Shown here: in pieces, positions 6,155 through 36,096 of the stretch
Layout of the letters: each line of letters opens with the position of its first letter
How positions within the stretch are numbered: the first letter of the stretch is position 1
From: a virus
IMG/VR virus record: IMGVR_UViG_3300032291_001035
Span: 1 to 38,749 of that record
Direction: 5' to 3' (one strand)
Length of the DNA stretch: 38,749 nucleotides
Program-made: the position numbers and the translations under genes
The notes under the pieces: model-generated
Databases searched by the model: none
Told to the model about the DNA's origin: nothing
Seen by the model: the letters and a program-made list of their open reading frames with translations, nothing else

Positions 6155-7987
6155 TTAAGCCCCTGCTCCCATTGGAGGCATTGGAGGTAAAGGTGAACTC
6201 ATCGGTCCAGCAGGTGCTGGTACTCCTCCACCTCCTCCGCCAAGTTGTGCGAGTAATCCTTCAATACCACCAGGTTGCGGAGCAGACGGTGGCTGTTCCA
6301 TACCCATGCCTGGCATTGACAAACCTGGCTGTGCTTCAGGTGCGCCAGTTGGTGCAGGTGTTGCCTGTCGTTCCTGTGCGCGTTTTTGTGCTGCTTGAAT
6401 TGCTTCAGGCAACGACATCTTGTTTTGGATAACACGATCAGCGATGAAAGCAAGGTCGTCAGGCTGGTAAGGGCCGTTCGGATCTGCAGCTTGTGACTGG
6501 ATGGAGGACAGCAATGCCGATTCGATTGCTTCTGCGACGATGCGATCCTTTTCCAACTCAGGATCTGCGACAAGTGGGTCTGCTTCACGGGCTGATTCTT
6601 TAGAAATAAGTCCTGCGCCGAGACGCTGACCCAAGCCGATAACAAGGTTGTTCACATCGGAACCTGCAGCTGAGTATGAGACATAGTGGAAGTCTGTTTC
6701 CCACAGTTTGTTCGGGGTGTAATCCTTCATACCGCCTGAGGTACCTGGCATGAAGAAAGACTTGGCGGTGTTACCCCAATATGCTTTTTCAAGGGCGATA
6801 GCGATTTTGTCTTCTTCAACACGGGCAGCTGCAAATGTGTCTTGTGCTTCTTGGACTCGGAAGTCCACTGTTGCTGAAAGAATGGATTCGCCTCGGCGAC
6901 CGGTACGAATGTTGGTGCCTGATTCTCCACCGAACTCGGCAGGGATAGCACCCTCAAGACGCTCTTGGCGTTCAAGTCGATCCAAGGCTGTGTCTGTTTT
7001 GTAGCCAGGATTTAACTGTTGTACTTGGATGTCGCCACCCTTGACAACACCCAACTGCCCTGTTTTGCCGTCAGCGATTTGGATGATTTCAGCGTTCTCA
7101 CCTGGGCGGGAAACAAGGTATTCATCGGGGAAAATGCCACGCTCAATAGCGATTTCAGTGAGAGCCTGAAGTCGAGCGCGGGTGTAATACATTCCAAGCA
7201 GACCATCGAACTGTCCACGGGGCTTGTCAAGCGTAATACGCTGTGGGATGACAACCAATGGCATACCAGTACGGTTAGAGATACGGGACAGTTCTACCGC
7301 TGCACGACCCATGTAGGCACCGCCGGTGATTGGGTCACGATCTTTTTCTGATCCCAGCACCAACACAACGATTTCGTTTTCACATACATATTCAAGGATG
7401 GTGAACAGATCGTCAGGGTTGGGGTTGCCAACACGAAGAACACCGTTCAACAATGGGCCGTAGTTACGCATAACCCACGCATACGGACGGCTGTAGGAGA
7501 AGATTACATTCTCAGGGACAGGGTTTGATTCGTCCGTGATAGGGGCAGCGAAGGTATCAAGTGGGTTACGAAGATGCCATTCGACAAGACGCTTATCAAG
7601 GTTCGGCTTGAGGAAAACGGGGGCTGAGGCGTAGGCAAAGAAGTTACGCGCACGTCGGCGATCCTTTTGGTTCATACGGTTTTGATCCCACATGGACAAC
7701 ATGGCTCGCTTACGGTCACGGGCAAGTTGCATAGAGCGATCTTGTCCTTCACGCAGGGCAGGGAAATACGGAGAAGGGGATGTCGAGGTGACACGCATAG
7801 CCATTTGGTCAAGACCCTGTACAAACAGGTTCGCTACAGATGAACGAGATGTACGATCCAACTCGGACAGGGGTACAACTACTTCACCGTTAGCGAGTCG
7901 GCGCACCTCACGCATCTGCTGGAGGATCGGCCCAAGGTTTTGATGACGCTCACGATAAAGATCAACAATTTCCTCAACTGATTTCAT
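6155..7987 (-). CDS. Portal protein, 610 aa
   Basis: The length, the position directly after large terminase, and the sequence character fit a podovirus-type portal, the dodecameric ring through which DNA is packaged and ejected. The N-terminus is helical (MKSVEEIVDLYRERHQNLGP). A mixed alpha/beta wing and stem region follows, with the segment LIPAEFGGESGTNIRTGRRGES-like near residues 343-365 (GAIPAEFGGESG). The C-terminus is Pro/Gly/Met-rich and disordered (GIEGLLAQLGGGGGG). An 8-bp inverted repeat encloses the region just before its start and may hide the ribosome-binding site. The assignment rests on context and general family resemblance rather than one diagnostic motif. Confidence 0.8.
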   Translation of the reverse strand: MKSVEEIVDLYRERHQNLGPILQQMREVRRLANGEVVVPLSELDRTSRSSVANLFVQGLDQMAMRVTSTSPSPYFPALREGQDRSMQLARDRKRAMLSMWDQNRMNQKDRRRARNFFAYASAPVFLKPNLDKRLVEWHLRNPLDTFAAPITDESNPVPENVIFSYSRPYAWVMRNYGPLLNGVLRVGNPNPDDLFTILEYVCENEIVVLVLGSEKDRDPITGGAYMGRAAVELSRISNRTGMPLVVIPQRITLDKPRGQFDGLLGMYYTRARLQALTEIAIERGIFPDEYLVSRPGENAEIIQIADGKTGQLGVVKGGDIQVQQLNPGYKTDTALDRLERQERLEGAIPAEFGGESGTNIRTGRRGESILSATVDFRVQEAQDTFAAARVEEDKIAIALEKAYWGNTAKSFFMPGTSGGMKDYTPNKLWETDFHYVSYSAAGSDVNNLVIGLGQRLGAGLISKESAREADPLVADPELEKDRIVAEAIESALLSSIQSQAADPNGPYQPDDLAFIADRVIQNKMSLPEAIQAAQKRAQERQATPAPTGAPEAQPGLSMPGMGMEQPPSAPQPGGIEGLLAQLGGGGGGVPAPAGPMSSPLPPMPPMGAGA

Positions 7988-8028: not shown

Positions 8029-10008
8029 CTAGTCACCTATCATCCATGACGGTCGCCATTGTCGAGGTGGCTTCTTGACTTGGGTCAGGTTCGGCAGGTT
8101 CAAAATTGCCATCCATAACGCCATCACAATGTCGGTTCCGTTCTTTTTATCCCTGCTCCACTTCGTTAACTCGTCAACAGCTGCAAGAGTTTTCCAGTTT
8201 CCACGCATAGTGGGGAACCGAATCGCACCAGATCGGACAACAGGGGGTATTAATGCTTCGACACCGAGGGCTTCGTCCAGTTTGTTACGGGAAGTGGTGT
8301 GCTGAATAATGTTTACCCGCCACATTGACTGCCATTTGCGTACAAAGTCGTGGGCAAGAAGGAATCTTTGCGCTGCGTTGATCTCGACAACCCAGTGTGA
8401 GATGGGATATCCGTATTCAACTGAGCGTTCCTGCCATTCTTCCATCATGCCTGAGTATGTGCCGGTCATTGTGTCGTAGCCAAGCACTTCTTCAGCGGTT
8501 AATTTGATGCGTTCCAAGTCAACGACGTGGTACAGGTTCAGATCAGGCTGGTAGATGATCCAAACAAACGCCCAAAACATTGTGGGGGATGGGTCAACGG
8601 CGACAATAGATACCAGTGGGTGCGATAATCCGTTAGGTATATACCCAGGTAGGCGTTCATTATCAATGCAACCGTTATACATCACCCCGTCGTTACCAAC
8701 ACCACCGGTAAGCCAAGTGCGATCAACAAGTCGAGAGTCAATATCCAAATCTTCCTGCTGATACACAACATTGAAAACATCAGGTTTGTTGTAGCGGATA
8801 AACGAAAGGTCTTTCCACGGCAAACGCTTCGGATCAAGCAACGGCCCATCAGGATACGGCAACGACTTAAACGATCTGGACTCTTTACCCGTGTCTAGTT
8901 CTTCGTAATACGCTTTGTAGATGATATGGCGGTACTTCTTTTGCCTGATTGGTTGACCATTCTCAACATCCTCAGGGGTTTCCACATCCGAACCGTCATA
9001 GTTAATGTCGTCATCAATGTCGTAAGTTTCCTTCGCCAAACAATGCGCGTACAAATCTCCCGATCCGAGACGCTGACCGACAACGGCAAGCAACCCACCT
9101 GGGTCACAACGAGCCTCTGCGACACCATCCCACCGTTCCAGCAACTTATCTCTGGCAACCGACTCACGGGCATTATCTGGGGATGCCACGTCGTCAAAAA
9201 GGCACAAGTCCGCACGGTGACCAATGAACTCTGTTTCAATACCGTAGGCACGAACGGTTGGCTCTTTATTGTCAAGCCCGTTCCCGTCCAGTTGTTCGAC
9301 AACAAATTCTTCTGCTCTCCATAGCGCACCTTTATCAACTGGTTTAAACCTTCCATAGTCAATCGTTAAACACCCGACAGCGTTGACAGCCAACCCCTTC
9401 TCGACCATCATCGGGTCAGGTTCAATAGGCATCACACGCTCAAGCGTTTCACGGATACGGCGAGAATACATCTTCGCCATGTTCTGAGACACCGACCCAA
9501 TCATCACACGGATACGCCGGTTACGAACAATCGCCCACACAGCCACGTCGTGAAACAAAGTGGACTTACCCGCACCAGGGGGAACATTCAAAACAACAAA
9601 TTCTTTTTCTTCAGACTCCAACAACTCCACCAATGTGAGAGCTGCTTCGACCTGCCACGGAGACGGAACACGGCCAAGGTAGTAAGTACGGAAAAAATCA
9701 AAATCTTCAAGCCCCCTTAACGCCTCCTCAGAAAGTTTGTCGTGAGGAATCGCAGATGGCAAGTCAATGGCATCCATGAAGTTATGGTGTGCAACAGATT
9801 GGCGACCACCAGATCCTGCACCTGAAGACACCTTATGGTCGGCTTCTTTACGGGCTGCTTCTAACTGCCTCGCCCGTTTAATCCAGCGCGTACCAGTGTT
9901 GTAATGAACACCTGTCTCTGCACAAGCATCTTTGATATTCCGACCTGCAGCTATGAGTGCAAAAAATTTTGCTTTGTCTGCCGGTGGAACTGCTCTTTTA
10001 GTTCCCAT
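8029..10008 (-). CDS. terL: Terminase large subunit (packaging ATPase/nuclease), 659 aa
   Basis: This is the motor that cuts concatemeric DNA and drives it through the portal. Visible parts in order: an N-terminal helix-turn-helix-like segment (about residues 10-50, DACAETGVHYNTGTRWIKRA), a Walker A at 141-150 (NVPPGAGKST), a Walker B at about 266-273 (ADLCLFDD), and the first RNase H-like nuclease aspartate in VAVDPSP near residue 473. A later acidic site is DKKNGTDIVMALWMA near the C-terminus. The N-terminal HTH may replace a separate small terminase, since none is visible. A short hairpin (10010-10027) sits between the upstream stop and this start. Confidence 0.95.
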   Translation of the reverse strand: MGTKRAVPPADKAKFFALIAAGRNIKDACAETGVHYNTGTRWIKRARQLEAARKEADHKVSSGAGSGGRQSVAHHNFMDAIDLPSAIPHDKLSEEALRGLEDFDFFRTYYLGRVPSPWQVEAALTLVELLESEEKEFVVLNVPPGAGKSTLFHDVAVWAIVRNRRIRVMIGSVSQNMAKMYSRRIRETLERVMPIEPDPMMVEKGLAVNAVGCLTIDYGRFKPVDKGALWRAEEFVVEQLDGNGLDNKEPTVRAYGIETEFIGHRADLCLFDDVASPDNARESVARDKLLERWDGVAEARCDPGGLLAVVGQRLGSGDLYAHCLAKETYDIDDDINYDGSDVETPEDVENGQPIRQKKYRHIIYKAYYEELDTGKESRSFKSLPYPDGPLLDPKRLPWKDLSFIRYNKPDVFNVVYQQEDLDIDSRLVDRTWLTGGVGNDGVMYNGCIDNERLPGYIPNGLSHPLVSIVAVDPSPTMFWAFVWIIYQPDLNLYHVVDLERIKLTAEEVLGYDTMTGTYSGMMEEWQERSVEYGYPISHWVVEINAAQRFLLAHDFVRKWQSMWRVNIIQHTTSRNKLDEALGVEALIPPVVRSGAIRFPTMRGNWKTLAAVDELTKWSRDKKNGTDIVMALWMAILNLPNLTQVKKPPRQWRPSWMIGD

Positions 10009-11094: not shown

Positions 11095-11167
11095 GAGCTG
11101 CAACCCAGTAGCAATAAAAGAACGGCCCAACAATCGAACCAATAAAAAAATAATCTTGGAATCCCAT
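11087..11167 (-). CDS. 26-residue membrane peptide / leader ORF upstream of dpdA
   Basis: This ORF has the best start signals at the head of the minus-strand operon: GGAGGGG, then ATG at 11167. It encodes a hydrophobic peptide (MGFQDYFFIGSIVGPFFYCY, then WVAARA) long enough for one membrane span. Its TAA (11089-11087) overlaps the GTG of dpdA within CGTGCCTAA, so dpdA is probably translated by re-initiation. It may be a real small membrane protein, a regulatory leader peptide, or both. Confidence 0.55.
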   Translation of the reverse strand: MGFQDYFFIGSIVGPFFYCYWVAARA

Positions 11168-11177
11168 GATCCCCTCC

Positions 11178-11205
11178 TTCGCAAACAATCATAGTCTGCT
11201 ACACT
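11178..11205 (+). promoter_or_regulatory. Candidate plus-strand promoter for the structured RNA
   Basis: TTCGCA (11178-11183), 16 bases, TACACT (11200-11205). The -10 fits the actinobacterial TAnnnT pattern; the -35 matches TTGACA at four of six positions. Transcription would start near 11212, at the edge of the structured region. It overlaps the divergent minus-strand promoter, so the two may exclude each other. Confidence 0.35.
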
Positions 11206-11216
11206 GACGGACGCAA
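11188..11216 (-). promoter_or_regulatory. Minus-strand promoter for the dpdA-terL-structural operon
   Basis: Reading the minus strand, TTGCGT (11216-11211), 17 bases, then TATGAT (11193-11188). The -10 box is near consensus and the -35 is weak. The predicted start lies about 15 bases before the GGAGGGG of the 26-residue ORF. It is the only clear promoter before the longest run of virion genes and may need an activator for its weak -35. Confidence 0.55.
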
Positions 11217-12008
11217 CAGAGAAAGACTCCCACGCTGGGAAGCGTCAGAGCGAGCAAGGCTGTACACCGGTTGCAAGGTGCGGGGCATTTCACACTAGGA
11301 AACTAGGGTAGATGTTCCCTGCAACCAAGACAGAATGAAGACAGATGGTCTGATCCCCTGTTGCGTAAGAGGAACAAGCAGCGTTGAATGAACGACCAAA
11401 CATTCCAACCTTTACAGGTGTCGGCTAAAAGAACTTGGCTACGGCGACCTTGAACTCTTGTGGTTCTAAACCGTGGGGGAAAGCCATCTACTCTTTGCTT
11501 GTCTTCAACACAGCTAGTTGTGTCTAACGCCCTCGTGCTTCGCACAGCGGTTGTTCGCAGCGAAACACGGATCACGTCGCTGTGAATGTGCAACGCTTCG
11601 GATGGGCCTTCAAAAGCCAACCACTCTCAGTAGTCAATAACCACACCCAGTCACACAGTCGAACACCTAGCCAACCTGGTACAAAAGAGTGACAACATCT
11701 GTGTGCAGTAATACAGTACCCCCCCCACACGCGCCTCGGCACACCCCCAGTTGGAGCTGCAGTCACGGACTGTTCGACCCTCCGACCCCATAAATTACAT
11801 AACTAGCATTATGGGCGGGACATTGGCACCCCCCTCCCCCCTCCCCCTGCCAAATTCCGGCGGGGCAGGTACCTCACTCACCGATTCCGGCACGGTTGCG
11901 GGTGGCGTGGGCGGCGTTCCGCCTTGCAGGGTTGCGGGTGTCTTTCCTGCCGTCTTCGGGGGCGTGGTTGCAGGCAGCTCAACCGCGGGAGATCTTCACC
12001 GAAAGAAA
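11207..12008 (+). ncRNA. Candidate giant structured non-coding RNA, about 800 nt
   Basis: Nothing here reads as a gene on either strand, yet stem-loops follow one another along its length. Examples: GACGC/GCGTC (11210/11242) enclosing TCCCA/TGGGA; GGTTGCA/TGCAACC (11269/11320) enclosing CTAG-GAAA-CTAG (11295-11306, a GNRA tetraloop on this strand); ACACA/TGTGT (11508/11519); CACAGCG/CGCTGTG (11543/11578); TTGGAG/CTCCGA (11751/11780) enclosing CAGTC-ACG-GACTG; CCCATAA/TTATGGG (11787/11809); TTGGCA/TGCCAA (11823/11848); GGCGG/CCGCC (11910); CGTGGTT/AACCGCG (11963/11981). Length, lack of ORFs and phage location match the GOLLD/ROOL class of ornate RNAs. Family membership is not shown; an origin or packaging site within the region is also possible. 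Confidence 0.5.
11823..11853. other. C-rich loop held in a 6-bp stem; G-quadruplex candidate on the minus strand
   Basis: Arms TTGGCA (11823-11828) and TGCCAA (11848-11853) enclose exactly 19 bases made of C runs of 6, 6 and 5 split by single T. The minus strand therefore carries three long G runs, and another C8 run lies at 11719-11726. It could act as a structural loop of the RNA, a protein-binding site, or a replication or packaging signal. Confidence 0.45.
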
Positions 12009-12012
12009 TAGC

Positions 12013-12041
12013 TTGACAAGTGTCGCACGGTTGTGTACTCT
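12013..12041 (+). promoter_or_regulatory. Promoter P1 of the plus-strand small-gene cluster
   Basis: TTGACA (12013-12018), 17 bases, TACTCT (12036-12041): a perfect -35 and a TAnnnT -10. The block 12010-12033 matches 12707-12730 at P2 in 22 of 24 bases, including most of the spacer, so the spacer is probably a shared operator. A TGTCGG/CCGACA hairpin (12047-12064) lies in the leader before the first gene. Confidence 0.75.
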
Positions 12042-12083
12042 CACCTTGTCGGAATAACCCGACAGCTACCGAAGGGGGCAGCA

Positions 12084-12461
12084 ATGCCAGATTATGAAGA
12101 AATAGAACCCGCGTGGGATCCTTGCGTGAAGTGTGGTGAGTGTGCGCCGTTGGATATCCACGGCGTTTGCATAGCTTGCGAACTGCCTGCACAGTTCGGG
12201 CGTACTCATCGGGATATGACCATTGAAGGCGGCAACCTGCCAGATTCGCCCCCGCGCGATTCTGTCCCCTTGTCTGCCGTGCGTGGCGAGATCATCGACA
12301 CGGTGCGAGAGTTGCAAGGGTTCCTCAATGATCTACTTGCAAGCCTTGACGGATCGCCCGCCGCCTTCACGTTGGGAGATTTCGCGGGAGATATCCGCGG
12401 CAACGCCTGCCACTTGTGGAACCTTTTAGTAGCCGTGAACGACAACAAGGGCGGCAACTAA
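12084..12461 (+). CDS. Small zinc-ribbon-like protein, 125 aa (first gene of the P1 unit)
   Basis: The ATG at 12084 follows AAGGGGGC. Near the N-terminus is a paired-cysteine cluster, CVKCGEC, then CIAC about 16 residues later, typical of a zinc ribbon or knuckle. The C-terminal half is helical (VRGEIIDTVRELQGFLNDLL). The stop overlaps the next ATG (TAATG). No family is recognised. A small regulator or host-takeover protein is plausible from context only. Confidence 0.7.
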   Translation: MPDYEEIEPAWDPCVKCGECAPLDIHGVCIACELPAQFGRTHRDMTIEGGNLPDSPPRDSVPLSAVRGEIIDTVRELQGFLNDLLASLDGSPAAFTLGDFAGDIRGNACHLWNLLVAVNDNKGGN

Positions 12462-12709: not shown

Positions 12710-12739
12710 TTGACAAGTGTCTTACGGTTGCATTACCGT
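12710..12739 (+). promoter_or_regulatory. Promoter P2, near copy of P1
   Basis: TTGACA (12710-12715), 18 bases, TACCGT (12734-12739). It begins directly after the stop of the 81-residue gene. The -35 and most of the spacer copy P1; the -10 regions differ. Shared control of the two units is likely. Confidence 0.7.
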
Positions 12740-12748
12740 GAAGACATC

Positions 12749-31171: not shown

Positions 31172-31172
<1 letters not shown>
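31035..31172 (-). CDS. Small acidic protein after the collagen-like fibre, 45 aa
   Basis: Its ATG overlaps the fibre stop (TAATG). Reads MTNPQIATILDDGTYGQREM and ends acidic. Small genes directly after fibre genes can encode fibre-assembly chaperones, but no family is recognised. Confidence 0.55.
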
Positions 31173-32877
<1,705 letters not shown>

Positions 32878-35115: not shown

Positions 35116-36096
35116 TTAGGCGTTGGTGCCGATGGACGAAGCCGACTCGATACGACGGAGGGCTTCCTGACGGAACACACCGTAACCCACGAAGTGCTTC
35201 CAACCCACAGGGCGGAAACGCTTGAGGAGGTCGGTCACTGTGCCGTACACGATCGTTGGCTGTGCGCCGTACTCGCCACCAAGGGAAACACCCTTAGCGA
35301 GAGCCTGGCGACCCATGATCAATGTGCCGTACACGTCGATGGTTCCAGCAGAACCGCTGTTGTTGGATGCGTTAGCAAACAATGGAGCGCGTGAGGACTC
35401 CATGAAGCGAACGCCTTCAAACATTCCGATTTCACCGTTGTAAATGCCTTCAGGATTTACATAGTTCGCTGGGGTACGCCATGCTGCTGCATCGGTTGCC
35501 GAACGGAAGTCGTAAGACACGTCGGGGTGGATGAAGCCAACATATGAACCGTTGATGGTTGGCACATTTGCACCACGCAACTGAGCGACGACTCGACGGA
35601 CATCGTTAGCTGCAAGGGTGTCATCTGCGTTAACCGTTGTACGGCTTGACGGAGCGACAGCACCGCCGGTTGCGTAAATCACATTGTCGCCAGCCTGAAC
35701 AACATTACGAGCGATGGTGTCAATTGACAAACCAGCGTTGTAACCAACAGCCTGAGCTGCAACTGGGTCAACAGGCATGAACGAAGATGCGCGCAACTTC
35801 GCTGTGGTGACAGTGGCGTTACCATACTCCTCAAGAGTAACGGTGACCTGGCTGTCAGACATTGAAACAGGAGTTACATCCTCGGCTTCGCCAAGAGGAG
35901 TAGTAGCTGCTGCAAGGTCAGCGAAGACGGTGAACTTGATAGATGAACCAGGGTTCGTTGCATTTGTTGCTTGAACATCTGCGAACTGGTCAAAGTACAT
36001 CTCTGGACGGAGGGCAAAATATGCCATCTTTTCAAAGGCAATCTGATCAACCGAGAGGTTGGCGGTGCCGATTTCTGCTGCGTAATAGTCAGCCAT
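35116..36096 (-). CDS. Major capsid protein, N4-gp56/HK97-fold type, 326 aa
   Basis: The pattern fits the N4-gp56 branch of HK97-fold capsids: PLGEAEDVTPVSMSDSQVTV and LEEYGNATVTTAKLRASSFM in the N-terminal half, then YGTLIMGRQALAKG and VGWKHFVGYGVFRQEALRRI near the C-terminus. It forms the shell. It follows a scaffold-like gene, has AAGGA upstream, and is followed by a strong terminator, as expected for a very abundant product. Confidence 0.9.
   Translation of the reverse strand: MADYYAAEIGTANLSVDQIAFEKMAYFALRPEMYFDQFADVQATNATNPGSSIKFTVFADLAAATTPLGEAEDVTPVSMSDSQVTVTLEEYGNATVTTAKLRASSFMPVDPVAAQAVGYNAGLSIDTIARNVVQAGDNVIYATGGAVAPSSRTTVNADDTLAANDVRRVVAQLRGANVPTINGSYVGFIHPDVSYDFRSATDAAAWRTPANYVNPEGIYNGEIGMFEGVRFMESSRAPLFANASNNSGSAGTIDVYGTLIMGRQALAKGVSLGGEYGAQPTIVYGTVTDLLKRFRPVGWKHFVGYGVFRQEALRRIESASSIGTNA

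Follow-up and report, generated by a model that had tools for sequence, protein, structure and literature searches.

The interval from position 11211 to about 11753 of the window (plus strand) is, with a probability of roughly 80%, a self-contained gene encoding a large, structured noncoding RNA that acts in trans, belongs to a class not in Rfam and is carried by uncultured, probably actinobacterial phages. The window is the whole virus record of 38,749 bases, classed as linear. Comparative analysis shows the region to be conserved and noncoding, with at least eight predicted helices, one covarying pseudoknot pair and its own conserved, predicted extended -10 promoter. The extent 11211-11753 is a best estimate, and the assignment draws on conservation in at least 116 contigs, covariation and G-U pairs. 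A large structured RNA had been proposed here by a sequence-only reading, and that proposal is upheld by covariation in 89 aligned relatives, the conserved upstream promoter and the absence of coding. No description of this RNA was found in the literature searched, the coverage of which was partial.

Genome setting and absence of coding

The virus is a tailed phage. An exact 20-bp direct repeat, GACGGTAGTGGCTAGGGTTA, is present at both ends of the window, from which the genome is probably complete, and the window may be circularly permuted. Genes run leftward nearly throughout, with a single rightward block from 12084 to ~15.9 kb. The gap at 11185-12083 lies between this block and a leftward DpdA/TerL/portal block, the last gene of which encodes DpdA, a phage 7-deazaguanine DNA-modification enzyme (Pfam PF23859; 10297-11184, minus strand). 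TerL (8029-10008, minus strand) carries an N-terminal helix-turn-helix (HTH_23), which suggests a fused small-subunit function, and is accompanied by a portal-like protein (6155-7987). The major head protein is encoded at 35116-36096, and the window also encodes a C5 methyltransferase and tail fibres, among them a repetitive, collagen-like protein (31172-32536, minus strand). An SSB, an annealing protein and a RecE-like exonuclease are all encoded within 16392-38655, and window ORFs of 200 aa or more include none recognised as a polymerase, helicase or primase. The rightward block is served by a near-identical promoter pair, TTGACAAGTGTCNNACGGTTG, at 12014-12043 and 12715-12744 (plus strand).

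Open reading frames within the gap are mechanical only, and the claim that it is gene-free was borne out across 11185-12083. The longest of them, on the minus strand at 11303-11620, has 105 aa and is broken by internal stops in 15 of 31 relatives, and no conserved reading frame occurs in the RNA region of the relatives compared; a protein-coding explanation was rejected on these grounds.

The gene neighbourhood varies among relatives. DpdA adjoins the RNA in only 7 of 141 loci and a functional tie to it was rejected. In a distant sister group (L098, L102, L106 and L108) the RNA lies directly after DpdA in the same direction, and most carriers of the RNA have no DpdA. At least three terminase types occur with the RNA, so association with a single packaging motor is not strict: L129 and L124 have an unrelated terminase, and the L200 genome has yet another, its TerL lying ~6.5 kb from the RNA on the same strand and not adjacent. 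ARAGORN called no tRNA genes in the window, and none in 28 loci or the 141 oriented loci. Four loci (L149, L194, L201 and L051), in which ARAGORN likewise calls none, contain sequences resembling tRNA 3' halves (T arm and acceptor) directly before the RNA promoter; these fragments recall the tRNA-rich surroundings of GOLLD and ROOL, or else an attachment site.

Homologues and covariation

Relatives were first gathered through the neighbouring TerL and DpdA proteins, the RNA region not being a selection criterion, and positions 11100-12100 were used as a blastn query against these loci. Segments 11195-11487 (73-95% identity) and 11683-11857 were matched in most loci long enough to reach them. 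An IMG/VR pattern scan with the signature hairpin (helix 6, below) yielded at least 120 stretches and, after removal of near-duplicates, RNA homologues (11195-11753) stood in at least 116 representative, diverse uncultured phage contigs. Conservation extends over ~11197-11753 and a short motif at 11792-11817, and none was seen among relatives at 11860-12008. The boundaries proposed from the single sequence, 11207-12008, thus hold for the first part and fail for the last ~150 nt. Among TerL-bearing loci, 13 were found without the RNA, and all but two of them carry fewer than 800 bases upstream. The remaining two, L060 and L107, have ~1.8 kb available; because the distance between TerL and the RNA reaches 1.7 kb elsewhere (2.6 kb in the related L108), neither is a clear counter-example.

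The exact signature pattern was absent from 84,980 bacterial and archaeal genomes, no prophage or host carriers were found through the pattern or by TerL alignment, and five divergent DNA queries returned no relatives among cultured phages. Compared as protein, TerL matched cultured phages, those of Streptomyces among others, at no more than 25-33%. A WhiB gene is present in two relatives (L129 and L124), alongside the unrelated terminase. Since regulators of the WhiB type are a known feature of Actinobacteria and of actinophages, the hosts of the RNA carriers are probably Actinobacteria, judging solely by these two relatives. In the distant sister group (L102, L106 and L108) the promoter, the G-run and helices 2-4 are kept, and helix 6 is missing.

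The abundance of stems that had drawn attention to the region was no greater than chance in the single sequence. The minimum free energy of 11207-11740 was -155.6, against -159.6 +/- 6.9 for shuffles (z +0.58; 72 of 100 shuffles equalled or exceeded its stability), and the minus strand gave a z of +0.44. Since stability did not exceed that of shuffles, a count of stems is by itself no evidence, and the folding energy of one sequence was rejected as uninformative.

The evidence for structure comes from aligned homologues, as the earlier reading had advised. RNAalifold on a first alignment of 40 sequences returned helices with many double changes. A second alignment, made independently with E-INS-i from 116 sequences, placed nearly all of its strongest covarying column pairs (z above 20) in contiguous antiparallel helices. 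With a third alignment (A2, 89 sequences) as input, RNAalifold returned 29 pairs, and double changes were present in 19 of these. A plus-strand structure of 63 pairs was then scored on A2 against 500 column shuffles and against a control in which partners were slid by 1-3 columns. Paired cells made up 89.5% (71.0% shuffled, 30-43% slid), double-change cells numbered 928 (306 shuffled, 145-229 slid) and the covariation score was 0.397 (0.143 shuffled, 0.060-0.084 slid), the slid comparison being inflated by the structure having been drawn partly from subsets of the same sequences. None of the 500 shuffles matched any of these values, and the size of the gap, together with the double changes, exceeds what such inflation gives. 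Compensatory double changes occurred in 46 of the 63 pairs and indels were restricted to loops. Among 13 listed helix pairs, 9 show UG or GU types, which would be mismatches on the minus strand, so the RNA strand is plus. Part of the set was found by a pattern covering helix 6 and GUGGGGG, and the invariance of these two elements is therefore partly selection; helices 1-5, 7 and 8 are unaffected.

These observations also bear on the weakest alternative, a very improbable one, in which conservation acts on the DNA itself (as operators, cos or promoters) and the stems are a by-product: the promoter-like 3' block (11683-11753) and the near-palindrome at 11792-11817 would fit it, but for 11225-11555 it is contradicted by the compensatory changes, the strand-specific G-U pairs and the loop-confined indels of the aligned sequences, and, were the transcript to stop short of 11683, it could apply to the 3' block.

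Anatomy of the RNA and its flanks

The predicted promoter (11178-11205, plus strand) consists of a weak -35-like TTCGCA (11178-11183) and an extended -10, TGCTACACT (11197-11205), which would place the transcription start at ~11211. The motif TGnTAnnnT occurs 5' of the RNA in 88 of the 116 representatives listed, against 11.2 expected from shuffles, and is absent from an equal-length downstream control.

The structured core spans 11225-11484 (all helices are on the plus strand). Helix 1 (11225-11251) is a hairpin with a UGGGAA loop, 69-88% paired, in which seven of eight pairs are changed on both sides. Helix 2 (11259-11286) is a hairpin with a conserved UUGCA in its loop, 88% paired and with all eight pairs changed on both sides; self-kissing of this loop was considered and rejected, as its self-complementarity is not kept in all lineages. 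Helix 3 (11292-11309; pairs with z>30) bears the GNRA tetraloop that had been noticed on the plus strand, and the loop is real: the hairpin at 11293-11308 has GAAA here and GAAA, GGAA or GUAA among relatives. Helix 4 (11313-11376) has a basal stem (11313-11318/11371-11376) with all six pairs changed on both sides and a distal arm (11321-11325/11360-11364) that is lacking in some lineages and 99% paired where present. Helix 5 (11386-11405) is a variable stem with a conserved AACG loop, 87% paired, and its five pairs are all changed on both sides.

Helix 6 (11416-11450), the family signature, is a near-invariant hairpin, GGUGUCGGCUAA..UUGGCUACGGCGACC, with seven of 11 basal pairs invariant and four main pair types at its closing pair; it is also intact in the 40 loci of the first alignment, which were found through TerL, DpdA and blastn. 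Helix 7 (11452-11466) is a hypervariable stem with the most double changes, all five pairs being changed on both sides. The lone covarying pair G11446-C11471 joins a bulge of helix 6 to the strand past helix 7 and is a pseudoknot pair because it crosses helix 6. It is GC in 52, CG in 25, UA in 8, UG in 1 and other in 3 of 89 sequences, and has a z of 27 in the 116-sequence alignment. After helix 7 comes AAACCGUGGGGG, with the invariant GUGGGGG (11473-11484 including the next bases). The bases that follow the G-run (11481-11484) are a possible pseudoknot partner of 11438-11440, and their variants (GGCU/AGC, GGUC/GAC and AGUC/GACU) stand weakly above shuffles, so that this second pseudoknot is suggestive only. 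Helix 8 (11526-11555), a conserved stem AACGCCC../..GGUUGUU with a variable apical hairpin, is found in most lineages and missing in some; it is 81% paired, with five of six pairs changed on both sides.

Past 11570 a variable C/A-rich stretch is followed by an ordered 3' block (11683-11753, plus strand), and the 3' end of the RNA could lie anywhere from ~11570 to 11815. The block consists of AAAAGAGTGA, ~16 nt, a TAATAC-like box, a C or G run and GCCTCGGCAnACCCCCAGTTG, in an order that is fixed in relatives, with GCCTCGGCAnACCCCC as the closing motif, and it recurs in the same order in the distant group L102, L106 and L108. In 1.1 Mb of relatives its motifs occur almost exclusively at the RNA locus and on the plus strand, usually as a single copy, and therefore look like RNA; iteron-like repeats were rejected on the same observations. 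The block may belong to the RNA, as its 3' end or 3' domain, or may instead be a second promoter followed by a leader. A conserved near-palindrome, TTACATAAC..CATTATGGGC (11792-11817, plus strand), lies just past the RNA and is possibly a terminator or a binding site. In the 3' ends of L121, L128, L150 and L223 the 3' motif lies in the loop of a covarying stem, variants of which in this lineage are GGCUCGG/CCGAGCC, GGCUAGG/CCUAGCC and GGGCAGG/CCUGCCC.

Possible roles and comparison with known RNAs

A trans-acting structural RNA is the most economical reading that we infer. The folded RNA itself would be the product and, from context alone, would act in trans in the infected cell, probably serving as a scaffold that is held by tertiary contacts of the GNRA loop and the pseudoknotted helix 6/7 core and that would bind a host or phage factor. 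That it is so widely distributed among phages whose terminases are unrelated speaks for some general advantage in infection. More tentatively, it can be pictured as a pseudoknotted RNA machine of actinobacterial phages with otherwise unrelated packaging genes, forming an RNA-only or RNA-protein assembly needed in infection, its fold bearing no relation to those of GOLLD, ROOL, OLE or other known large RNAs.

Less probable is a homo-oligomeric RNA assembly, an RNA-only cage or ring, that would act like GOLLD or ROOL from outside both families. The size class and the phage setting are those of GOLLD and ROOL, the loop of helix 2, UUGCA(A), is partly self-complementary, and a GNRA loop and a pseudoknotted core are present, elements that serve A-minor and loop contacts in the GOLLD and ROOL structures (PMC12286853). 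Against a cage or ring, there is no homology to either RNA, the conserved core of ~260 nt is smaller than GOLLD or ROOL, neighbouring tRNAs were not detected, and the self-complementarity of the helix 2 loop is missing in some lineages.

It is improbable that the transcript is a replication-origin primer or regulatory RNA in the manner of ColE1 RNA II, which it may resemble: its length is ~545 nt, and its invariant G-run precedes a C-run and an AT-rich block by ~270 nt. The phage probably relies on host replication, since none of the large ORFs was recognised as a polymerase, helicase or primase, and this would suit an origin RNA. However, with the C-run lying on the plus strand, the G-run of the RNA cannot pair with the template as in RNA II, and seven contigs gave no consistent GC-skew switch at the RNA.

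Slimmer still is the chance that the RNA serves the rightward operon as a cis-acting leader (a riboswitch, an attenuator or a put-like antiterminator). Among the structured RNAs of phages and bacteria, leaders are the most frequent type, and the next genes are co-directional in the window and in 42 of 69 relatives, where a cis role may exist in some lineages. The downstream genes are, however, convergent in 23 of the 69, so the RNA is not an obligate leader; the position ahead of the only plus-strand operon, which had been taken as a mark of the locus, is true of the window and fails as a constant feature in the third of relatives with convergent genes. Moreover, the operon of the window has its own promoter (TTGACA-17-TACTCT at 12014), the gap of more than 500 nt from the core to the first gene is poorly conserved, and there is no constant downstream gene (R1 in 3 and R2 in 13 of 141 loci). 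A packaging RNA, analogous to phi29 pRNA and working with the adjacent terminase, is given a similarly small chance. In 125 of 141 copies the RNA lies a short distance upstream of TerL and divergent from it, a count biased by the many loci that were collected through TerL, and against this role the terminases of L129 and L124 are unrelated and the RNA of L200 does not lie beside TerL.

As for known families, the Rfam search that the sequence-only reading had proposed returned nothing for GOLLD, ROOL or any other model: covariance models of Rfam 15, at the gathering threshold and under permissive settings, gave no family match in the window or in 13 relatives, the permissive search returning a few weak, unrelated hits (E 1.4 in the window, and outside the RNA in L129 and L156). 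The GOLLD model (RF02032) matched none of nine RNA-carrying phage records at E<=10 and the ROOL model (RF03087) likewise none of nine. In the ROOL run the control genomes were silent as well, which makes that result weak taken singly, and the ROOL negative draws also on the cmscan against all of Rfam. Membership in either family was rejected, and of the suggested likeness to GOLLD and ROOL the size class and phage setting stand.

To our knowledge, large elaborate RNAs of bacteria and phages are few, and two of them, GOLLD and ROOL, have proved to form RNA cages. The new RNA adds a separate class, with an alignment (A2) deep enough to fix the secondary structure and a core defined for cryo-EM, and it makes directly testable whether phages commonly use large RNA machines. 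Like phi29 pRNA it is phage-encoded and structured and usually lies near the terminase, but it is longer, occurs with unrelated terminases, is not always adjacent to them and has no Rfam match. It resembles the HK022 put RNA and riboswitch-type leaders in being structured and, in the window, in heading a gene block, whereas it is far larger, pseudoknotted, often located before convergent genes and provided with its own predicted promoter. With ROOL it shares the character of a large, structured, stand-alone phage RNA; ROOL is found in prophages too, where it is common, whereas the new RNA was absent from GTDB genomes by exact pattern. With GOLLD it shares a large, ornate form, a phage origin and freshwater or metagenomic associations, and its length is about half to two thirds that of GOLLD. 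GOLLD and ROOL often lie near tRNA islands (PMC12286853), whereas no tRNAs were detected beside the new RNA, a criterion that is not strict. In GOLLD the 3' half is conserved and the 5' half is variable (PMC12286853), whereas in the new RNA the conserved part is 5' (11225-11484). Large structured phage RNAs are thus already known as a kind, and this family, itself without a known relative, is a new class of them, like GOLLD and ROOL in kind and a member of neither.
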